A stretch of DNA of 50,402 nt from an uncultured Acidobacteriota bacterium. GTDB taxonomy: Bacteria; Acidobacteriota; Thermoanaerobaculia; Gp7-AA8. The stretch spans positions 1 through 50,402 of the forward strand of contig CALMZP010000157.1 of assembly GCA_937870635.1 (NCBI GenBank), given 5' to 3'. Of this stretch, positions 1,981-45,837 are shown one piece after another. The position numbers were made by a program, and so were the translations under genes. The stretch's first letter is position 1, and every line of letters starts with the position of its first letter. The notes under the pieces were generated by a model that saw nothing but the letters and a program-made list of their open reading frames with translations, was not told the origin of the DNA and searched no databases.

Positions 1981-2352
1981 TCAGCCGTTCGTGACTGCCA
2001 GCAGCGCCGTCCAGAGATCGCCGAATGAAAATGGTTTGCGGAGGAACGCGACCGAGGGCGAATCGAAGTGGTGATGGAGGCCATCTTCGGCGTGCCCTGA
2101 AATAAAAACGACGGGGAGCGGCCGGCCCGTCTGACGCAGAGCGCGATAGAAATCGATGCCGTTGCCATCGGGAAGCCCGACGTCGACGACGAGCGCCTCG
2201 GGGTCGCCCTCGCACTCGCCGAGCAGGCGCATGGCTTCTGCCACACCGGTGGCCTGAATGACTTCGACTCGCTCCAGTTCCAGGAGTGCGGCGACCCCGC
2301 TGGCGACCGACGGATCGTCCTCCACCAGGAGAACTTTCGTTATCCCCACCAT
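1981..2352 (-). CDS. Single-domain response regulator
   Basis: A 123-residue stand-alone CheY-like receiver. The acidic pocket is in VEDDPS, the phospho-acceptor is Asp57 in VVDVGLPDG, the Thr/Ser position is FISGH, and the conserved Lys is in FLRKPFS. There is no output domain, so it probably relays phosphate to an Hpt protein or binds a partner. The ATG at 2352 is chosen because homology starts there; a TTG ten codons upstream is in frame but has no ribosome-binding site. The ATG itself has only a GGAG placed very close to it. Confidence 0.88.
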   Translation of the reverse strand: MVGITKVLLVEDDPSVASGVAALLELERVEVIQATGVAEAMRLLGECEGDPEALVVDVGLPDGNGIDFYRALRQTGRPLPVVFISGHAEDGLHHHFDSPSVAFLRKPFSFGDLWTALLAVTNG

Positions 2353-5347: not shown

Positions 5348-6268
5348 TCACCCCCCGCCGCCGGACGAGGGCTCCGGCACCGTGCTGCCGAATCCGCCGG
5401 CTGACGAACGCTTGAAATTGGGCTCGTACTTTCGCGGCGGCCGCGTAATCCATGGCCGCAACGGCAGGCCGGGCTCCATGACGTTCGCGATGTGAACGGC
5501 GATCCCGGCCGCCTCGCTGTCGAAGAAGAAGCCGTCGAGATCGATGACCGGCGCCTGCGCCGGATCGTTGGTCACGTACACGATCCGATTGATGCCCGCC
5601 GATTTCATCAGCCCCGGACCAGGGAGCGCCGCCTCTTCGATGTAGTACCGGTTGTCGAACTCCCCCGGCTTGCCGGTTCGTTGTCCGAGGCGGCCGTTGT
5701 CGCAGATCCAGACAGGGGGTGAGGAAGGAGTCAGACGCTCTCGAACCTCTCCGATCGTCGTCGCCCAGCGCAGCAGCTCCGCGAGAATGAGCTCGGGGCG
5801 GATCAGGCCTTTCGGATGCGGCCAGTTGTTGAATGTGCAGACGGGCTGACACCCGGCCGATGTGACGAGCCATGCCGCCGCTTCGACGCTCGCGGGTCCG
5901 GGCAGATCGGCGATCGTCAGGACGCCGGGGACGAGCCATTGCGGCGCCGGAGCGCTGCCCCTGGCATGCTCCGGCAGTTCTAGGCTCGGCGGAGCGCCCG
6001 GCCGCGCCGGTCCGATTTTTTCTTTCGGGATTCTGTCGAGCGCAGCGAAAATCGGAATCGCGTGAAACGGGATCCATTGCGATTCCGGGTGCGGTCCCCA
6101 CACGTCGTAAAGCTTCTCGGGACGGATGTACCGGTGCCACAGCTGGCTGCGCTGCGCATCGTCGGCCGTCGGATCTCCGACCGTGACGTCCTGATGACCA
6201 AACAGCACGTCGAGCCTGAGTCTGATGCGACCCAGAAGCTCAAGTATTCGCGACAGCGGTTGCCACAT
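5348..6268 (-). CDS. Protein of unknown function, third gene of ATP-grasp cassette
   Basis: I do not recognise this 306-residue protein. It has no signal peptide and no clear membrane helix; the N terminus is amphipathic (RILELLGRIRLRLDVLF). Notable blocks are WHRYIRPEKLYDVWGPHPE, VPGVLTIADLPGPASVEAAA, a central CTFNNWPHP and a conserved-looking WICDNGRLG. The last 40 residues are Pro/Gly/Ser-rich and end in a run of four glycines. The ATG at 6268, preceded by GAGG, overlaps the ATP-grasp gene by 29 bases, which argues for co-translation and a shared pathway. Its stop precedes a 165-base gap before the EamA fragment. Confidence 0.75.
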   Translation of the reverse strand: MWQPLSRILELLGRIRLRLDVLFGHQDVTVGDPTADDAQRSQLWHRYIRPEKLYDVWGPHPESQWIPFHAIPIFAALDRIPKEKIGPARPGAPPSLELPEHARGSAPAPQWLVPGVLTIADLPGPASVEAAAWLVTSAGCQPVCTFNNWPHPKGLIRPELILAELLRWATTIGEVRERLTPSSPPVWICDNGRLGQRTGKPGEFDNRYYIEEAALPGPGLMKSAGINRIVYVTNDPAQAPVIDLDGFFFDSEAAGIAVHIANVMEPGLPLRPWITRPPRKYEPNFKRSSAGGFGSTVPEPSSGGGG

Positions 6269-7472
6269 GGTAGGCCTCGTGCGTGATGAGTGGCCGCGCT
6301 GCCGCGCGACTGTAATAACCGGCGAAGCGTCCGTTGACGACATACGCGCCGATCGTCGGATAGAGCGGACCCTGGTCGAACATCAGCGGACGGACTGCGA
6401 ATCGTTCCTGAATACAGAAGTCGGCCGGTGCCGCGGCGGCGCGTGCGAGCGCGTCACTCCATTCCTTTTCCGTGACGAGCGATCCGATGACGACCGCATC
6501 GCCCATGCGTCCGAACGCGCCCTTCAGCACCCAGCGGTCGCGCTGCTCGAGAAGCATCGGGACCTTGTCCGCCTGGAACGACTCGGTCCATGGACAATGC
6601 TCTTCGAGCAGGCGGCGATCCTGCGGATCGAGGGATGTCTCTTCCCGCCACAAAGCGAAGATCGTTTTGCTTTGACGCACGAGGCGCCGCAGCGGATTCA
6701 TCATCGGGAGCTGCGGCGCAGCCTTCAGCCATACATCGATGTTCGGCAGGCGAGGCATCCACTCGCCGGGAAAAAATCGGAACACCGCATCGACGCCCGT
6801 GCCGAGGATTCGCGGTCGTCCGAAGCGAATGGTGAGGTGCTCGGGCGAGGCGAGCACCGTCCGATGCCCCTCTTCCTGAAGCCACCGTTCCAGGATCAGC
6901 ATGTGCTGGAGGTCTTCCGCAAACGCGGTGGCGTAGAGCAGCGCGATCGTCTCGTATGGACGCAGGGCGTCGAGGACATGCCGCCGGAGATCGCCTTCCC
7001 ACCGCAGGCTATCGCCCGGGCTGCCGAGAAGATCGGGGACCCCGCAGCTTTCGTTGAATCCGCCGGGCGCATCTTCGTTGAACTCCGACACCATCCATCG
7101 TCCCTCCTCGGTGAGGAAGAGGTCGTAACGCGCAATCTGCAGCGCATCGCGATCTTCGCAACCGATGAGCGGATCGAGCACCGGCGGAATCCCCAGCCGC
7201 CTCAGCGCCTCGAGGTTGCGTGCGGCGCGGCGCTCGAAACGGTCGAGCGCGCGATGGAAGTCCTCGGCGAGAGCGACGATGTTCTCGTGGTCCGCGCGGC
7301 GAAGGACCATCGTCTCCGGAATCACCCGGCACACGCCGCTCGTGAACGCATCCCACTTGAAGTAGCGAAAACGGAGATCCCGAACGAACGCCGCGTGCTC
7401 GGAAGGCGAGAGGGACCACCGTTGAGCGTGCAGTTCCGGACCGTGGTGAGCCAGGGCGAGAGCGTCGCTCAT
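6240..7472 (-). CDS. Glutathionylspermidine-synthase-like ATP-grasp ligase
   Basis: A 410-residue protein of the circularly permuted ATP-grasp group related to the synthetase domain of glutathionylspermidine synthase and E. coli YjfC. Signals are the N-terminal FKWDAF region, FNEDAPGGFNES, RYDLFLTEEGRW, the long LPNIDVWLKAAPQLPMMNP region, and a nucleotide-binding segment RWVLKGAFGRMGDAV followed by CIQERF. Family members form amide bonds between a carboxylate and an amine using ATP; the substrates here are unknown. Start ATG at 7472 overlaps the upstream stop as ATGA, so it is translationally coupled to the membrane protein. No glutathione or spermidine genes are nearby. Confidence 0.85.
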   Translation of the reverse strand: MSDALALAHHGPELHAQRWSLSPSEHAAFVRDLRFRYFKWDAFTSGVCRVIPETMVLRRADHENIVALAEDFHRALDRFERRAARNLEALRRLGIPPVLDPLIGCEDRDALQIARYDLFLTEEGRWMVSEFNEDAPGGFNESCGVPDLLGSPGDSLRWEGDLRRHVLDALRPYETIALLYATAFAEDLQHMLILERWLQEEGHRTVLASPEHLTIRFGRPRILGTGVDAVFRFFPGEWMPRLPNIDVWLKAAPQLPMMNPLRRLVRQSKTIFALWREETSLDPQDRRLLEEHCPWTESFQADKVPMLLEQRDRWVLKGAFGRMGDAVVIGSLVTEKEWSDALARAAAAPADFCIQERFAVRPLMFDQGPLYPTIGAYVVNGRFAGYYSRAAARPLITHEAYHVATAVANT

Positions 7473-8305
7473 CCCGGTCCCCACCAGCGGTCGGCCAGGC
7501 GGTGAAGGCCCCACGCCGCGCTGCCGATCGCCAGGTAAGCGACGGTTTCAGCGATACGCCGCGTATCGAATTTCGTCACGTCCATCTCGGCATGGTCGCC
7601 GCCGCCGCCGTTCCACGACGCGAACAGCTCGTGCGCGATCAGCAGCGCCCCGATGATCCCGACGGACGACAGCCCATGCCGCCACCCCCAGAAGTCTCCC
7701 GACACGGCCTCGGTGAGCGGGACAGCGCAGGAGAGGAGGAACGCGCCGGCCGCGCGCGCCGCGGGGACGTTCCGCTCGCGCCGGATCTGATGCGAGAACT
7801 TTCCTTTGTCACGCCGGAGGTAGAGCGCGAATGCGCCCATGAGACATCCCCATCCGAGATGGAAGAAGATGACCGGGATCCACCAGCCGCCTTCGTAGTC
7901 GCTCAAGGGGTCGGCTTCGCCCCAGAGGCTTCCGCCGAAGATCATCCCGGTGGAGATCGTCAGCGCCGCGATGACGAGTGCGGCGGCGACGTTCCGGCGC
8001 TCACCGGCGTCCTGCTGCGTGCTCGCGCCGAAGGCGGCGGCCATCGTCTGGCCGTACATCTTCACCGCACCGTACCCCATGACCAGATAGAAGAAGACGT
8101 AGACGCCGGTGACGCTGGGGTCGGCGTAGTTCCAGAGGACGGACGCGATCCAGAGCATCGAGGCGATGACGCTGACGCGCACGATGCCGAGGGCAGGGTT
8201 GCCGCGAAATGAGAGGGAAGGGAAGGCGCTGGTCGAGTTGCGGGCCATCCCGATCACGCCGAACACGACGGAGATCACCAGAACGAAAACTTCGTCCTCG
8301 GACAC
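7469..8305 (-). CDS. Multi-pass membrane protein of the ATP-grasp cassette (DUF350-like?)
   Basis: A 278-residue protein with about seven hydrophobic segments, e.g. VFVLVISVVFGVIGM, VSVIASMLWIASVLW, ALVIAALTISTGMIFGG, and GIIGALLIAHELFASW. The segment ending GMIFGGSLWGE resembles the DUF350 pattern, and DUF350 proteins are known neighbours of YjfC-type ATP-grasp genes; the match is by eye and weak. The GTG at 8305 is chosen because a perfect GGAGG lies at 8310-8314, four bases upstream. That ribosome-binding site directly abuts an inverted heptamer array, which could fold in the leader and limit initiation. It begins the cassette and overlaps the ligase gene by 4 bases. Confidence 0.75.
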   Translation of the reverse strand: MSEDEVFVLVISVVFGVIGMARNSTSAFPSLSFRGNPALGIVRVSVIASMLWIASVLWNYADPSVTGVYVFFYLVMGYGAVKMYGQTMAAAFGASTQQDAGERRNVAAALVIAALTISTGMIFGGSLWGEADPLSDYEGGWWIPVIFFHLGWGCLMGAFALYLRRDKGKFSHQIRRERNVPAARAAGAFLLSCAVPLTEAVSGDFWGWRHGLSSVGIIGALLIAHELFASWNGGGGDHAEMDVTKFDTRRIAETVAYLAIGSAAWGLHRLADRWWGPG

Positions 8306-8314
8306 GAAACCTCC

Positions 8315-8380
8315 ATTTTGGATTTTGGATTTTGGATTTTGGATTGGATTGTCGTCAATCCAAAATCCAAAATCCAAAAT
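8315..8380. repeat. Inverted heptamer array, unit GATTTTG
   Basis: Four to five copies of ATTTTGG run from 8315 to about 8350, a six-base loop GTCGTC follows, then three inverted copies (CCAAAAT) end at 8380. The arms could pair into an imperfect hairpin. It sits immediately upstream of the GGAGG of the membrane-protein gene, inside its probable 5' leader. Confidence 0.9.
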
Positions 8381-8408
8381 GCCCCCCCCCGCCCGCGGCT
8401 CCACCCCG

Positions 8409-8449
8409 AAAAAAAATAAGGCCCCGAAAGCCTTTGCCTTTCGGGGCCG
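8409..8449 (-). terminator. Rho-independent terminator, minus strand
   Basis: On the minus strand an 11-bp perfect stem (GGCCCCGAAAG with CTTTCGGGGCC) closes a 7-base loop and is followed at once by TTATTTTTTTT. It would end transcripts arriving from the right, that is from the 75-nt repeat array; no protein gene on that strand feeds into it. It also insulates the cassette at 5348-8305 from upstream transcription. Confidence 0.85.
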
Positions 8450-8760
8450 TTCTCGACGCGTTGACATCCGCAAAGGGGCATTCGCGCCGCATTTGCCTCG
8501 ATGATCCAGGCATCATCGTGGGCCGTTCCGGATCGTTGACATCCGCCTTGGAGCGTTCGATCCGTAACCTGACCTCGCGAACCTTCGCTTCCGAGGTCTT
8601 CTACGTCGCGTTGATATCCGCAAAGGGGCGTTCGCGCCGTAGCTGCCTTGATGACTTATCGCGTCATTCGCGGCCACCTCACATCGTTGACATCTGCGAT
8701 AAAGCATCCGATGTGAAGCACGCGAATGCTAATCGGAAATCAACGCGAAGTGCTGTTAAC
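8450..8760 (-). ncRNA. Candidate structured RNA: four tandem 75-nt units
   Basis: The motif CGTTGACATCCG (plus strand) recurs at 8459, 8534, 8609 and 8685, a spacing of 75, 75 and 76 bases. Units 1 and 3 are most alike; units 2 and 4 are diverged. Read on the minus strand each unit ends in GCGGATGTCAACG or a variant, and each carries its own stem at an equivalent place: CGATGAT/ATCATCG, GACCTCG/CGAGGTC, ATGAC/GTCAT, AGCAC/GTGCT. The stem bases differ while pairing is kept. Two units also hold GGCG-CGAA-CGCC-type hairpins. The terminator at 8409-8449 follows. No convincing protein frame covers it. A defined RNA class cannot be named from sequence alone. Confidence 0.5.
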
Positions 8761-12077: not shown

Positions 12078-13518
12078 CACCATCCCGAACAAGGAACGGA
12101 TGAAGCTTCCCCGGCAGCACATGCCGGAGATCGCCGCCGATGTTCGCGCGCGCAATTTCGAGGAAGTGAATCTCGGCTTCGAAGCCAATGCGGCCATCAT
12201 CGAATCGCTCCGCTGCCTGGCGTGCAAGACGCCGACGTGCACGCGCTCCTGTCCCGTGGGCGTGGACGTCAAAGAGTTCCTGGCCCGCATCATCGATAAG
12301 GACTACCTCGGCGCCGCGGCCGTGATCCGCAGAGACAATGCACTCCCGGCCATCACCGGGCGCGTCTGCCCCCAGGAAGATCAGTGCGAAGGCGACTGCC
12401 TCGTCGCCAAGCGCAACGAATCGGTCGCGATCGGACATCTCGAACGCTTCGTGGCCGACTACGAGCGCAAGACTGGTCAGATCGGGATTCCGGAGAACGC
12501 TCCGTCCACGGCGAAGAAAGTGGCGATCGTCGGCAGCGGCCCGGCCGGCCTGAGCGCGGCGGGAGATCTCGTGCAGCAGGGCCACAAGGTCCGTGTCTTC
12601 GAAGCGCTGCACGAGCTGGGCGGTGTGCTGGTCTACGGCATCCCCGAGTTTCGCCTTCCGAAGGACATCGTGCGTCAGGAAGTCGATGTGCTCCGCAAGA
12701 GGGGAGTGGAATTCGAGACGAACGTCATCGTCGGCAAGACGGTCACCGTCGATGAGCTCCTCGGAGAAGAAGGATACGACGCGGTCTTCGTCGCCACGGG
12801 GGCCGGCCTGCCGCAATTTCTCGGCGTCCCGGGCGAGAACCTGAATGGTGTCTATTCTGCGAACGAGTTCCTGACGCGCGTCAACCTCATGCGCGCGTAC
12901 CGGTTCCCCGATTACGACGAGCCGGTCTACGACTGCCGCGGCAAAGACGTGGTCGTCGTCGGCGGCGGGAACACCGCGATGGACGCCGTGCGCACGGCGC
13001 GGCGCCTCGGTGCCCGCAACGCGTACCTCGTCTACCGGCGCGGCGAAGAGGAGATGCCGGCACGCAAGGAAGAGGTCAAGCATGCGAAGGAAGAAGGGAT
13101 CGAGTTCCGCATGCTGACGAATCCCGTCGAGCTGATCGGCGACGAGCGCGGATGGCTCACCGGGGTCCGCTGCGTGCGGATGGAGCTCGGCGAGCCGGGA
13201 GCAGACGGCCGGCGCAAACCCGTCCCGGTTGCAGGATCGGAGTTCGTGATCGATGCGTCGCTCGTGATCGTGGCCGTCGGTACGTCGGCCAATCCGCTCG
13301 TGCAGTCGACCACACCCGATCTGAAGACGACGAAGAAGAACTACATCGAAGCCGATCCTGAGACGCTGCGAACGTCGAAGAAAGGCGTGTTCGCCGGCGG
13401 CGACATCGTGACCGGCGGCGCAACGGTCATCCTGGCCATGGGCGCCGGACGGAAGGCGGCAAAGGGAATCGGGGAGTATTTGAGCTCGGGCGCGTGGCCG
13501 TTAACGGTTAACGGTTAA
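12070..13518 (+). CDS. gltA: NADPH-dependent glutamate synthase small-subunit-like (GltA/NfnB)
   Basis: A 482-residue protein with an N-terminal twin-cluster region (RCLACKTPTCTRSCPVGVDV, then GRVCPQEDQCEGDC), followed by FAD motif AIVGSGPAGLSAA, NADPH motif VVVVGGGNTAMDAVRTA and a final FAD motif GVFAGGDIVTGGATV. The eight cysteines fit two [4Fe-4S] clusters. Paired with the upstream NfnA-like gene it is more likely NfnB, an electron-bifurcating transhydrogenase subunit, than a true glutamate synthase; databases use both names. The final residues PLTVNG and the stop codon are encoded by a GTTAACG heptamer array that starts inside the gene. Confidence 0.9.
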   Translation: MSNTIPNKERMKLPRQHMPEIAADVRARNFEEVNLGFEANAAIIESLRCLACKTPTCTRSCPVGVDVKEFLARIIDKDYLGAAAVIRRDNALPAITGRVCPQEDQCEGDCLVAKRNESVAIGHLERFVADYERKTGQIGIPENAPSTAKKVAIVGSGPAGLSAAGDLVQQGHKVRVFEALHELGGVLVYGIPEFRLPKDIVRQEVDVLRKRGVEFETNVIVGKTVTVDELLGEEGYDAVFVATGAGLPQFLGVPGENLNGVYSANEFLTRVNLMRAYRFPDYDEPVYDCRGKDVVVVGGGNTAMDAVRTARRLGARNAYLVYRRGEEEMPARKEEVKHAKEEGIEFRMLTNPVELIGDERGWLTGVRCVRMELGEPGADGRRKPVPVAGSEFVIDASLVIVAVGTSANPLVQSTTPDLKTTKKNYIEADPETLRTSKKGVFAGGDIVTGGATVILAMGAGRKAAKGIGEYLSSGAWPLTVNG

Positions 13519-13527
13519 CGGTTAACG
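13500..13527. repeat. Heptamer array, four copies of GTTAACG
   Basis: Four exact tandem copies span 13500-13527. The third copy supplies the TAA stop of the GltA-like gene (13516-13518). The same unit recurs at 20681-20722 and, inverted, at 20509-20547. Confidence 0.95.
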
Positions 13528-13543
13528 GGCGTATTCTGACTCC

Positions 13544-20048: not shown

Positions 20049-20516
20049 ATGGGAAAAACGCACGAATACAAGGCTCATCTCACCTGGATTGGAAACAGGG
20101 GCAACGGGACCGCCACCTATCCCGGCTACGGCCGCGAATACCGCGTGGCGATCAGGGGAAAGGCCGACCTGGTCGGGTCGGCGAACCCGATGTTCCGGGG
20201 CGACCCCTTGAAGCACGATCCGGAAGACCTCTTCCTGACCGCGATCTCGTCGTGTCACATGCTGTCGTACCTCGCACTCTGTGCGCGGCGGGGGATCACC
20301 GTGACCGCGTATGAAGACAATGCGAGCGGAACGCTGGCACTCGACGGCGACGGCGGCCGTTTCACGGAAGTGACACTGCGGCCGCAGGTGACGATCGCCG
20401 GCGGCGACGCCGCGCTCGCCGAACAGCTCCACCACATCGCGCACGAGCAGTGCTTCATCGCGAACTCGTGCAGCGTGCCGATCCGGTATGAGGCGACGGT
20501 CGTACGGAACCGTTAA
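20049..20516 (+). CDS. OsmC/Ohr-family peroxide-detoxifying protein
   Basis: A 155-residue OsmC-family protein. MGKTHEYKAHLTWIGNRG starts the fold, HDPEDLFLTAISSCHMLSYL carries the first conserved Cys, and EQCFIANSCSV the second pair. Such proteins reduce organic hydroperoxides with redox-active cysteines; the sequence is closest to the general OsmC/YhfA-like branch. The ATG at 20049 is favoured over an earlier in-frame ATG at 20010 because homology starts there. The stop codon TAA (20514-20516) lies inside an ACCGTTA heptamer array that begins within the last codons. Confidence 0.88.
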   Translation: MGKTHEYKAHLTWIGNRGNGTATYPGYGREYRVAIRGKADLVGSANPMFRGDPLKHDPEDLFLTAISSCHMLSYLALCARRGITVTAYEDNASGTLALDGDGGRFTEVTLRPQVTIAGGDAALAEQLHHIAHEQCFIANSCSVPIRYEATVVRNR

Positions 20517-20743
20517 CCGTTAACCGTTAACCGTTAACCGTTAACCGAAGTACGCGTCACGAGACACGTCACCCTGAGCCGCGAAGACGGCGAAGGGTCT
20601 CAAGATGCGCGATCTTCGCATTTTGAGATCCTTCGACGTCTGCGCGCCTCAGGATGACGTGGGCAGGCTACGCTCTCGCGGTTAACGGTTAACGGTTAAC
20701 GGTTAACGGTTAACGGTTAACGGTCAACGGTCAACGGTCAACG
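20509..20743. repeat. Composite: inverted heptamer arrays around a REP-A palindrome
   Basis: About 5.5 copies of ACCGTTA (20509-20547) are followed by a 97-bp palindrome (20565-20661) and then the inverse unit GTTAACG six times (20681-20722) and a variant, GTCAACG, three times (20723-20743). The whole forms a nested inverted structure of about 235 bp. The left arm reads into the OsmC-family stop and the right arm adjoins the collapsed PEBP gene. Confidence 0.92.
20565..20661. repeat. Dispersed palindrome REP-A, copy 1
   Basis: A 97-bp imperfect palindrome bounded by CACGTCACCCTGAG and CTCAGGATGACGTG, with inner inverted segments GAAGGGTCTC and GAGATCCTTC. Very similar elements lie at 23183-23281 and 38914-39010, and a diverged one at 31133-31237. 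Confidence 0.88.
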
Positions 20744-32030: not shown

Positions 32031-32140
32031 CCTTGGACCTTGGACCTTGGGATTGCCACCCAACGGACCACCCAGTGCGGCTACCTCTCCCAAGGTCCAA
32101 GGTCCAAGGTCCAAGGTCCAGGGTCCAGGGTCCAGGGTCC
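32031..32140. repeat. Inverted heptamer arrays, unit CCTTGGA
   Basis: Three copies of CCTTGGA (32031-32051, the last ending in GGG) face four inverted copies of CCAAGGT (32090-32117) and three copies of the variant CCAGGGT (32118-32138). The array ends four bases before the stop of the convergent ATP-grasp gene. Like the array at 20681-20743, one arm is a block of pure units followed by exactly three one-base variants. Confidence 0.92.
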
Positions 32141-34215: not shown

Positions 34216-34460
34216 GAGTGCGGCAGCTTGCTGCCGGGGGCGGGGGGCTGGGGGCGGGGAAGGAAGAAGGAAGGAGGCAGAAGGCAGAAGGCAGAAGGCA
34301 GAAGGATGACGGATGAATTGGGGATACGGGAATGGTGAATGGTCAATGTTGAATGGTGAATGGTGAATTCACAGCACAAACCATTCACCATTCACCATTC
34401 ACCATTCCCGCACTTCATCCTTCATCCTTGATCCTTGATCCCCAAGCTGCCGCACTCGTT
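34216..34460. repeat. Composite repeat: REP-C ends with nested heptamer arrays
   Basis: Order: REP-C palindrome (34216-34236), four GGCAGAA-type heptamers (about 34276-34305), GAATGGT heptamers (about 34330-34366), a short AT-rich centre, inverted ACCATTC heptamers (about 34379-34409), CCTTCAT/CCTTGAT heptamers (about 34415-34440) and an inverted REP-C (34442-34460). The whole is a nested inverted structure of about 245 bp. Its right end joins the truncated SRPBCC gene. Confidence 0.88.
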
Positions 34461-45251: not shown

Positions 45252-45540
45252 GAGTGCGGCAGCTTGCTGCCGCGTGGACTTTGAAGGCAGAAGGCAGAAG
45301 GCAGAAGGATGAAGGATGAAGGATGAAGGATGAAGGATGAAGGATGAAGGGTGAAGGATGAAGGATGAAGGGTGAAGGATGAAGGATGAAGGATGAAGGA
45401 TGAAGGATGAACGACGCGGAGACGCCGAAGGATGACGTGATCGCGATCGTCGCGAGCGCCGTCGATCTGCAGCGTAGCTCGGGATGACACGATTTTGCCT
45501 TCACCCTTCATCCTTCATCCTTCACCCTTCATCCTTCATC
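45252..45540. repeat. Composite repeat: REP-C, 18 heptamers, inverted heptamers
   Basis: REP-C palindrome at 45252-45272 is followed by three AAGGCAG units (45284-45304), fifteen AAGGATG/AAGGGTG units (45305-45409), an 88-bp spacer with REP-A-like pieces (GAAGGATGACGTGA, CTCGGGATGACA), and about six inverted CCTTCAT/CCTTCAC units (45498-45539). The order REP-C then AAGGCAG then AAGGATG is the same as at 34216-34310. The region upstream of the serine hydrolase has no gene. Confidence 0.93.
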
Positions 45541-45573
45541 CTTCCTTCATCGTTCATCGATCGTTGATTGCAG

Positions 45574-45579: not shown

Positions 45580-45602
45580 CGCGGCCTGTTCTTTTACAAC
45601 CT

Positions 45603-45797
45603 CGTCTGATTTGGTGCAGCAACGCCCAGGCGGCGTTGCTCGAGGGAAGCCGGTTGAATTCCGGCGCGGCCCCCGCCACTGTAACCGGAGACGACTCGAT
45701 GCTGGTCGCGTAGACCCCCACTGTTCCGTGCACGCGGGACGGGAAGGGCGCATCGGGAAGGACGACCCGGAAGCCAGGAGACCGACCGCTTCAGACG
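45603..45797 (+). promoter_or_regulatory. Cobalamin riboswitch
   Basis: CGTCTGA (45603-45609) pairs with TCAGACG (45791-45797) as P1. Inside are the conserved core blocks GAAGCCGG, GCCACTGTAACCGG and the B12-box-like GAAGCCAGGAGACCGACC at 45770-45787. This is a textbook adenosylcobalamin aptamer. It lies 40 bases before the TTG of the receptor gene. The T run at 45802-45807 just after P1 and the purine-rich ribosome-binding site beyond it offer either a termination or a translation switch. Bound cobalamin should turn the receptor off. Confidence 0.95.
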
Positions 45798-45837
45798 CCA
45801 CTTTTTTATCGATCTCTTCGGAGGGAAGGAGTTCGTC

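Follow-up and report, generated by a model that had tools for sequence, protein, structure and literature searches.

A family of tandem kissing-hairpin RNAs, predicted by comparative analysis, in one order of Acidobacteriota

Introduction

Bacterial RNAs that repeat one structural unit in tandem have been described in several settings. The STAXI motif is a small pseudoknotted unit repeated in tandem, usually three times, and lies near genes for DNA-handling proteins (PMC2864571). The ToxI RNAs of type III toxin-antitoxin systems likewise consist of several pseudoknotted tandem repeats, 3 to 5.6 in number, but these are short H-type pseudoknots flanked by single strands and processed by ToxN (PMC8860590). 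The pan motif, which lies upstream of pantothenate operons, is composed of tandem simple stems with conserved unpaired purines and was suggested to be a protein-binding motif, the passage on it mentioning no kissing loops (PMC2864571). The protein-titrating RNAs of the CsrB/RsmZ type carry many copies of one hairpin site on one RNA, which is the mode of action that we propose below for the present RNA, and the ColE1 RNAI/RNAII pair interacts through fully paired 7-nt hairpin loops, although there two RNAs meet, whereas in the RNA described here both loops lie in one module of one RNA.

Here we examine an array on the minus strand of a 50,402-nt stretch of DNA (referred to as the window; contig C157 of a 4.5-Mb draft genome of an uncultured bacterium of the class Thermoanaerobaculia, Acidobacteriota), which a sequence-only reading had proposed to encode a new structured noncoding RNA of about 350 nt built of four repeated 75-nt units and closed by a terminator. 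The modules found here are two hairpins joined by loop-loop kissing, the last of which is the terminator, and we found no description of such an RNA in the literature, as far as the open part of PubMed Central allowed this to be searched. What the RNA does is not yet known.

Results and Discussion

The repeats, the compensated stems and the terminator that had been noticed in the window were all confirmed. Four copies of a 31-nt unit begin at 8459, 8534, 8609 and 8685, with spacings of 75, 75 and 76 nt, the later copies being 77, 94 and 65% identical to the first, and the 13-mer CGTTGAYATCCGC, with up to 2 mismatches, occurs 11 times in the window against 3.8 expected, a number that none of 100 shuffles reached. 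The outer stem of the units, P1, changes in sequence but still pairs, reading on the minus strand UCACAUCG/CGAUGUGA, ACGGCGCG/CGCGACGU, ACGGAUCG/CGAUCCGG and GCGGCGCG/CGCGUCGA. The terminator is a stem of 11 bp at 8448-8420 followed by a T-run on the minus strand. Folding of the minus strand from 8409 to 8760 gave z = -5.4 and that of the plus strand from 8450 to 8760 gave z = -3.4, with 0 of 100 shuffles as stable in either case. Three details of the earlier description required correction: the repeating unit is two hairpins rather than one, the RNA most likely spans about 8720 to 8411 (~310 nt), and the gene directly after the terminator is a DUF350 membrane gene, with the glutathionylspermidine-synthase-like ATP-grasp gene behind it (the two together at 6240-8302, minus strand).

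Each module of the array consists of a hairpin A with a 7-nt loop and a hairpin B with a 7-nt loop complementary to it. Module 1 (8644-8716, minus strand, as are all features of the array) contains hairpin A at 8716-8679 (loop UUAUCGC, 8702-8696) and hairpin B at 8674-8644 (loop GCGAUAA, 8662-8656), and its loops are complementary at 7 of 7 positions. Module 2 (8571-8640) contains hairpin A at 8640-8603 (loop CCUUUGC, 8626-8620) and hairpin B at 8598-8571 (loop GCGAAGG, 8588-8582), complementary at 7 of 7 positions with one G-U. Module 3 (8494-8565) is instructive, because the loop of its hairpin A at 8565-8528 (CCAAGGC, 8551-8545) is unlike the others and that of its hairpin B at 8523-8494 (GCCUGG(A), 8511-8505) has changed with it, although the fit needs one bulge: 5 of 7 positions pair in strict register, and the duplex energy of -7.4 kcal/mol is best with its own B. 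In module 4 (8420-8490), hairpin A lies at 8490-8453 (loop CCUUUGC, 8476-8470) and hairpin B is the terminator stem itself, the loop of which (GCAAAGG, 8437-8431) is complementary to the A loop at 7 of 7 positions. The inferred RNA consists of almost nothing but these four tandem modules. The U-tract of the terminator occupies 8411-8419 and marks the inferred 3′ end.

Homologues with the same period, the absence of which would have counted against the original proposal, were found. At ordinary BLAST sensitivity the DNA of the array occurs only once in its own genome, without a second long copy, so a dispersed repeat was rejected, while relatives in the same family matched at E values down to 8e-20. 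These relatives include metagenome bins of Thermoanaerobaculia or Acidobacteria gp7, for example QHVT01000028.1 (contig C3 of genome G008), JADGNX010000088.1 (C83 of G005) and JADGOA010000182.1 (C442 of G016); here and below, genomes are numbered G and loci L. A covariance model built from a first alignment found 78 modules at E<=0.01 in 148 genomes of the class, 77 of them in the order to which the window belongs. Arrays are present in 17 of the 19 genomes of this order that were searched, amounting to 23 arrays. A diverged second array in the window's own genome, next to rpsA, was detected only with the RNA models and had been missed by the sequence-only reading, as had the second hairpin of the unit, the pairing of the loops and the identity of the terminator as the last of these hairpins.

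In the class and phylum searches the family is confined to this one order. In the class, 18 of 148 genomes matched the first model, all in the order except for one weak match in G137 (E 0.003), which is a single module without good loop complementarity inside a long open frame and was dropped; the second model added G079 at E 0.02 (19 of 147), which was not examined further. A set of 396 genomes drawn from the phylum, overlapping that of the class, gave 6 matches, all in the order. A pattern scan of genome contigs gave 17 stretches, of which 13 are arrays under model R1, from bins called Thermoanaerobaculia or Acidobacteria. L053 and L063 gave only partial matches to R1 and L051 and L061 none, though model R2 gave L063 30.5 bits and L061 a partial 15.5. 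We take these four as chance matches to the pattern, the least certain being L063, a contig titled Flavobacteriales with a lone A-hairpin-like match at 2246-2309 (minus strand), in which the core letters match closely but the outer stem and B hairpin do not; that this match is due to chance is not proven. Among viral contigs there was one pattern match (L158) and no model match. The two genomes of the order without an array, G003 and G012, which form one genus, gave only chance-level matches. A search around their S1 genes with filters off found nothing convincing, the best match (17.8 bits, in L146) being not upstream of S1 and departing from the conserved core.

Covariation, also named in advance as a criterion, was far above background. 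Reading the relatives in the RNA direction showed two hairpins per module, and a scan over all column pairs of a sequence-only alignment of 39 modules ranked outer-stem pairs and pairs joining the two hairpin loops near the top without any structure being supplied, with 96.7% of cells paired in P1 and 97.0% in the loop-loop helix. This alignment used modules from 12 of the loci recovered in the initial search for relatives, omitting weakly matching loci, the second module of L026 and one degenerate module of L024. A second, MAFFT alignment, again based on sequence only, comprised 77 of the 78 model matches (that of G137 was dropped), three of which were lengthened to the full module; it does not contain the degenerate first module of the second array of the window's genome (E 4.8e-4) or a module cut by a contig end in L103. 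In this alignment the twelve best of all column pairs belong to the structure. Significance was assessed with our own R-scape-like script rather than with R-scape itself, by comparison with 60 tree-based nulls in which substitutions are re-dealt along the branches: P1 pairs 6-33 and 5-34, P2 pair 14-22 and kissing pairs 17-65 and 19-63 beat every pair in all nulls (E<0.017, i.e. below 1/60), and kissing pair 21-61 reached an E of 0.02-0.05. The kissing helix pairs in 95.1% of cells, with two-sided changes at 7 of 7 pairs, and P1 pairs in 93.3%; the covariation score was 0.560 against 0.221 when shuffled and at most 0.114 when slid.

The resulting structure of hairpin A comprises a P1 of 8 bp, an internal loop with RAY on the 5′ side and UGUYAA on the 3′ side, a short P2 with C-G and Y-R pairs, and the 7-nt loop; after P1 closes, a linker leads to hairpin B. 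RNAalifold had first folded the inner stem as YGC/GCR with a 6-nt loop, but this was replaced by P2 (13-23, 14-22) around a 7-nt kissing loop because 14-22 and pairs of 15-21 with 61-67 covary. The core is nearly invariant among the 77 modules: A10 is found in 76, G12 in 76, G23 in 77, U25 in 75, G26 in 74, A29 in 77 and A30 in 76. Hairpin B is less regular than A, its stem P3 pairing in 78.5% of cells on this alignment, partly through misalignment, and its pairs do not reach significance (E 0.3 or more). The A loop is fully complementary to its own B loop in 55 of 77 modules, against 13.5 in shuffles (maximum 23 in 2000 shuffles).

The terminator is an integral part of the array. Of 24 array pieces, two (L103 and L104, on contigs C67 and C26 of G009) are contig ends that both break inside the array and together look like one 7-module array split by assembly, hence 23 arrays. 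All 23 pieces that reach their 3′ end (L104 ends at a contig edge) terminate in a last B hairpin with a T-rich tail, the loop of which is complementary to the last A loop at 7 of 7 positions in 22 cases and at 5 of 7 in L111. In the 3-module arrays beside rpsA, the three loop pairs are mostly incompatible with one another, as if to keep each A with its own B, and over all arrays the mean duplex energy is -7.9 kcal/mol with the own B loop and -3.1 with a different B loop of the same array. In the long arrays, the inner modules share nearly one loop pair and the terminator module has its own. Cross-complementarity between modules of one array does exist, namely between modules 2 and 4 of the window and among inner modules of long arrays, and in L113 and L106 module 1 pairs better with the next B.

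Most arrays of both kinds described below are preceded by a promoter-like pair of hexamers, TTG-type and TAGATT/TATCTT-like with a 17-18 nt spacer, ending about 10 nt before module 1, so the RNA would begin and end in structure. In the window this promoter is degenerate: by comparison with relatives, a possible -10 hexamer (TAGCAT) lies at 8726-8731 (minus strand), but there is no good -35 at the right distance in this genome and a promoter prediction listed none here, so this copy may be weakly expressed. The minus strand is further supported by the terminators on the RNA strand and by the presence of 98 G-U against 14 A-C cells in P1, P2 and the kissing helix when read as minus-strand RNA. 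A conserved protein frame through the region, which would have spoken against a noncoding RNA, was not found: one plus-strand frame is open across the window array, but the open frame, if any, differs between homologues and most have none.

The arrays fall into two kinds according to their genomic setting. The first kind (14 arrays, of 3 modules) lies beside a divergent gene with four S1 domains (rpsA/S1), found by tblastn next to 12 of the 14 (L119 and L123 lie near contig ends). In 11 of the 14 a His_Phos_1 phosphatase gene follows on the same strand, in 9 of these 11 within 60 nt of the array, but in L118 the gene is 361 nt away, and in L102 (the window's own genome), L109 and L124 tblastn finds no phosphatase gene and the array is still there. 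The second, often longer kind (the window, L103/L104, L106, L108, L110, L111, L112, L113 and L115) has no common neighbour and precedes unrelated genes (DUF350, pirin, PCMT) or genes on the opposite strand. Most of the second kind share an upstream block with TGTGGAAAAC and ATGTAACAG; in L104, L106, L108, L110, L112, L113 and L115 this block includes TGTGGAAAA, which is close to a DnaA box, and it is likely a common control region, of which the window copy has only a diverged form. The independence from neighbours argues for an RNA acting on its own, not a leader tied to one gene.

Comparison with described families gave no assignment. No family of Rfam 15 (4227 models) matched the array at or above the gathering score, this having been one of the checks proposed at the outset: the whole window contains only a cobalamin riboswitch and a tRNA elsewhere, the array alone at E<=5 gave three sub-threshold matches, and nine relatives' loci gave one tRNA only. 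The array does not fit STAXI, which lies near genes for DNA-handling proteins: there is no model match and the neighbours differ. The array is not a CsrA sponge, since PF02599 was found in 0 of 19 genomes of the order, while the control search found it in 3 of 14 genomes, E. coli and B. subtilis among them; in addition, GGA is not conserved, 22 of 77 modules having it at neither candidate position and the commoner position (45 of 77) starting in a base pair. Nor is it 6S RNA (RF00013), for which a separate gene is found in 15 of 19 genomes.

The interpretation of the locus as a modular, minus-strand noncoding RNA is thus supported. Its identity as a structured RNA family, with conserved two-hairpin modules, kissing loops, a built-in terminator and a near-invariant internal loop, rests on comparison and is held with high confidence, whereas transcription, stability through structured ends and recognition of the internal loop by a protein are inferred; no transcript data were examined, and the promoter is recognized by pattern only. 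Most likely, though tentatively, the RNA acts in trans as a multivalent binding platform, in which the kissing contact would hold A in one shape, the internal loop would be the recognition site for an unidentified RNA-binding protein (or, less likely, a small ligand), and module number (2 to about 7) would set the number of sites. Multivalency is at present only an analogy and no binding partner has been identified. The explanation as a whole seems only somewhat more likely than not. A further possibility, which we also regard as tentative, is that the loop sequences act as a pairing code that keeps each A hairpin with its own B hairpin, with the terminator built in as the last module's partner, in a rigid multivalent scaffold for a dedicated, still unknown binding protein. 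This would represent a new class of bacterial RNA. What is new here is the family and its architecture; the function, once known, may prove to be a familiar one. The terminator hairpin has a loop that is evidently under selection to pair with an upstream hairpin, the loop pairs that differ within one RNA yet stay complementary offer a natural set of kissing loops, and the near-invariant internal loop makes a binding partner directly searchable by pull-down.

Among the alternatives, a cis-acting riboswitch or attenuator, in which the modules sense something and the terminator loop contact controls read-through into the next gene, is unlikely but survives best. It is favoured by the phosphatase gene that follows most rpsA-side arrays and by the participation of the terminator in the kissing structure, but no downstream gene is conserved throughout, the rpsA-side array persisting in three loci without the phosphatase gene and the other kind having no shared gene. 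Ligand binding and switching were not assayed, and no alternative antiterminator pairing was noticed, although none was searched for systematically. Slightly less likely is an architectural RNA that oligomerises by kissing between copies. Kissing in trans would give the same covariation, inner modules of long arrays can pair with each other's loops, and fully paired 7-nt loops suit trans kissing, as in plasmid copy-control RNAs; however, the mostly incompatible loop pairs of the 3-module arrays favour pairing in register within a module. An antisense small RNA that pairs with mRNAs through its loops is also unlikely: a promoter-like site and a terminator framing the element are typical of small RNAs, but the loops are complementary to each other and covary, so they are mostly occupied, the conserved unpaired letters lie in an internal loop, and no long conserved unpaired seed is seen. 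A DNA-level repeat of protein-binding sites or a coding repeat without RNA function is very unlikely in spite of the plus-strand frame open across the window array and the fact that repeats exist in DNA regardless of transcription, given the two-sided compensatory changes, the G-U bias, the conserved terminators and the lack of a shared open frame. A type III RNA antitoxin, which tandem structured repeats ending in a terminator resemble, is least likely of all, because the module is a ~75-nt two-hairpin kissing unit rather than a short H-type pseudoknot and no toxin-like gene lies consistently downstream (His_Phos_1, DUF350, pirin, PCMT or others, only ten selected neighbours having been run through Pfam).

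We do not claim rpsA/S1 as the binding partner, since only adjacency supports it and G003 and G012 keep S1 without either kind of array; this genus offers a natural comparison for finding a partner gene lost together with the array. The window contains further repeats. Tandem heptamers, of a different sequence at each place, occur at 8314-8381, 13500-13528, 20508-20743, 32031-32140, 34236-34441 and 45282-45558, and at several of these places a second array holds the reverse complement, forming inverted repeats (25-nt arms at 8314-8381). A similar run of heptamers lies upstream of the array in L118 / L029. The cobalamin riboswitch of the window (45595-45804, plus strand, 96 bits) lies beside a large heptamer repeat.
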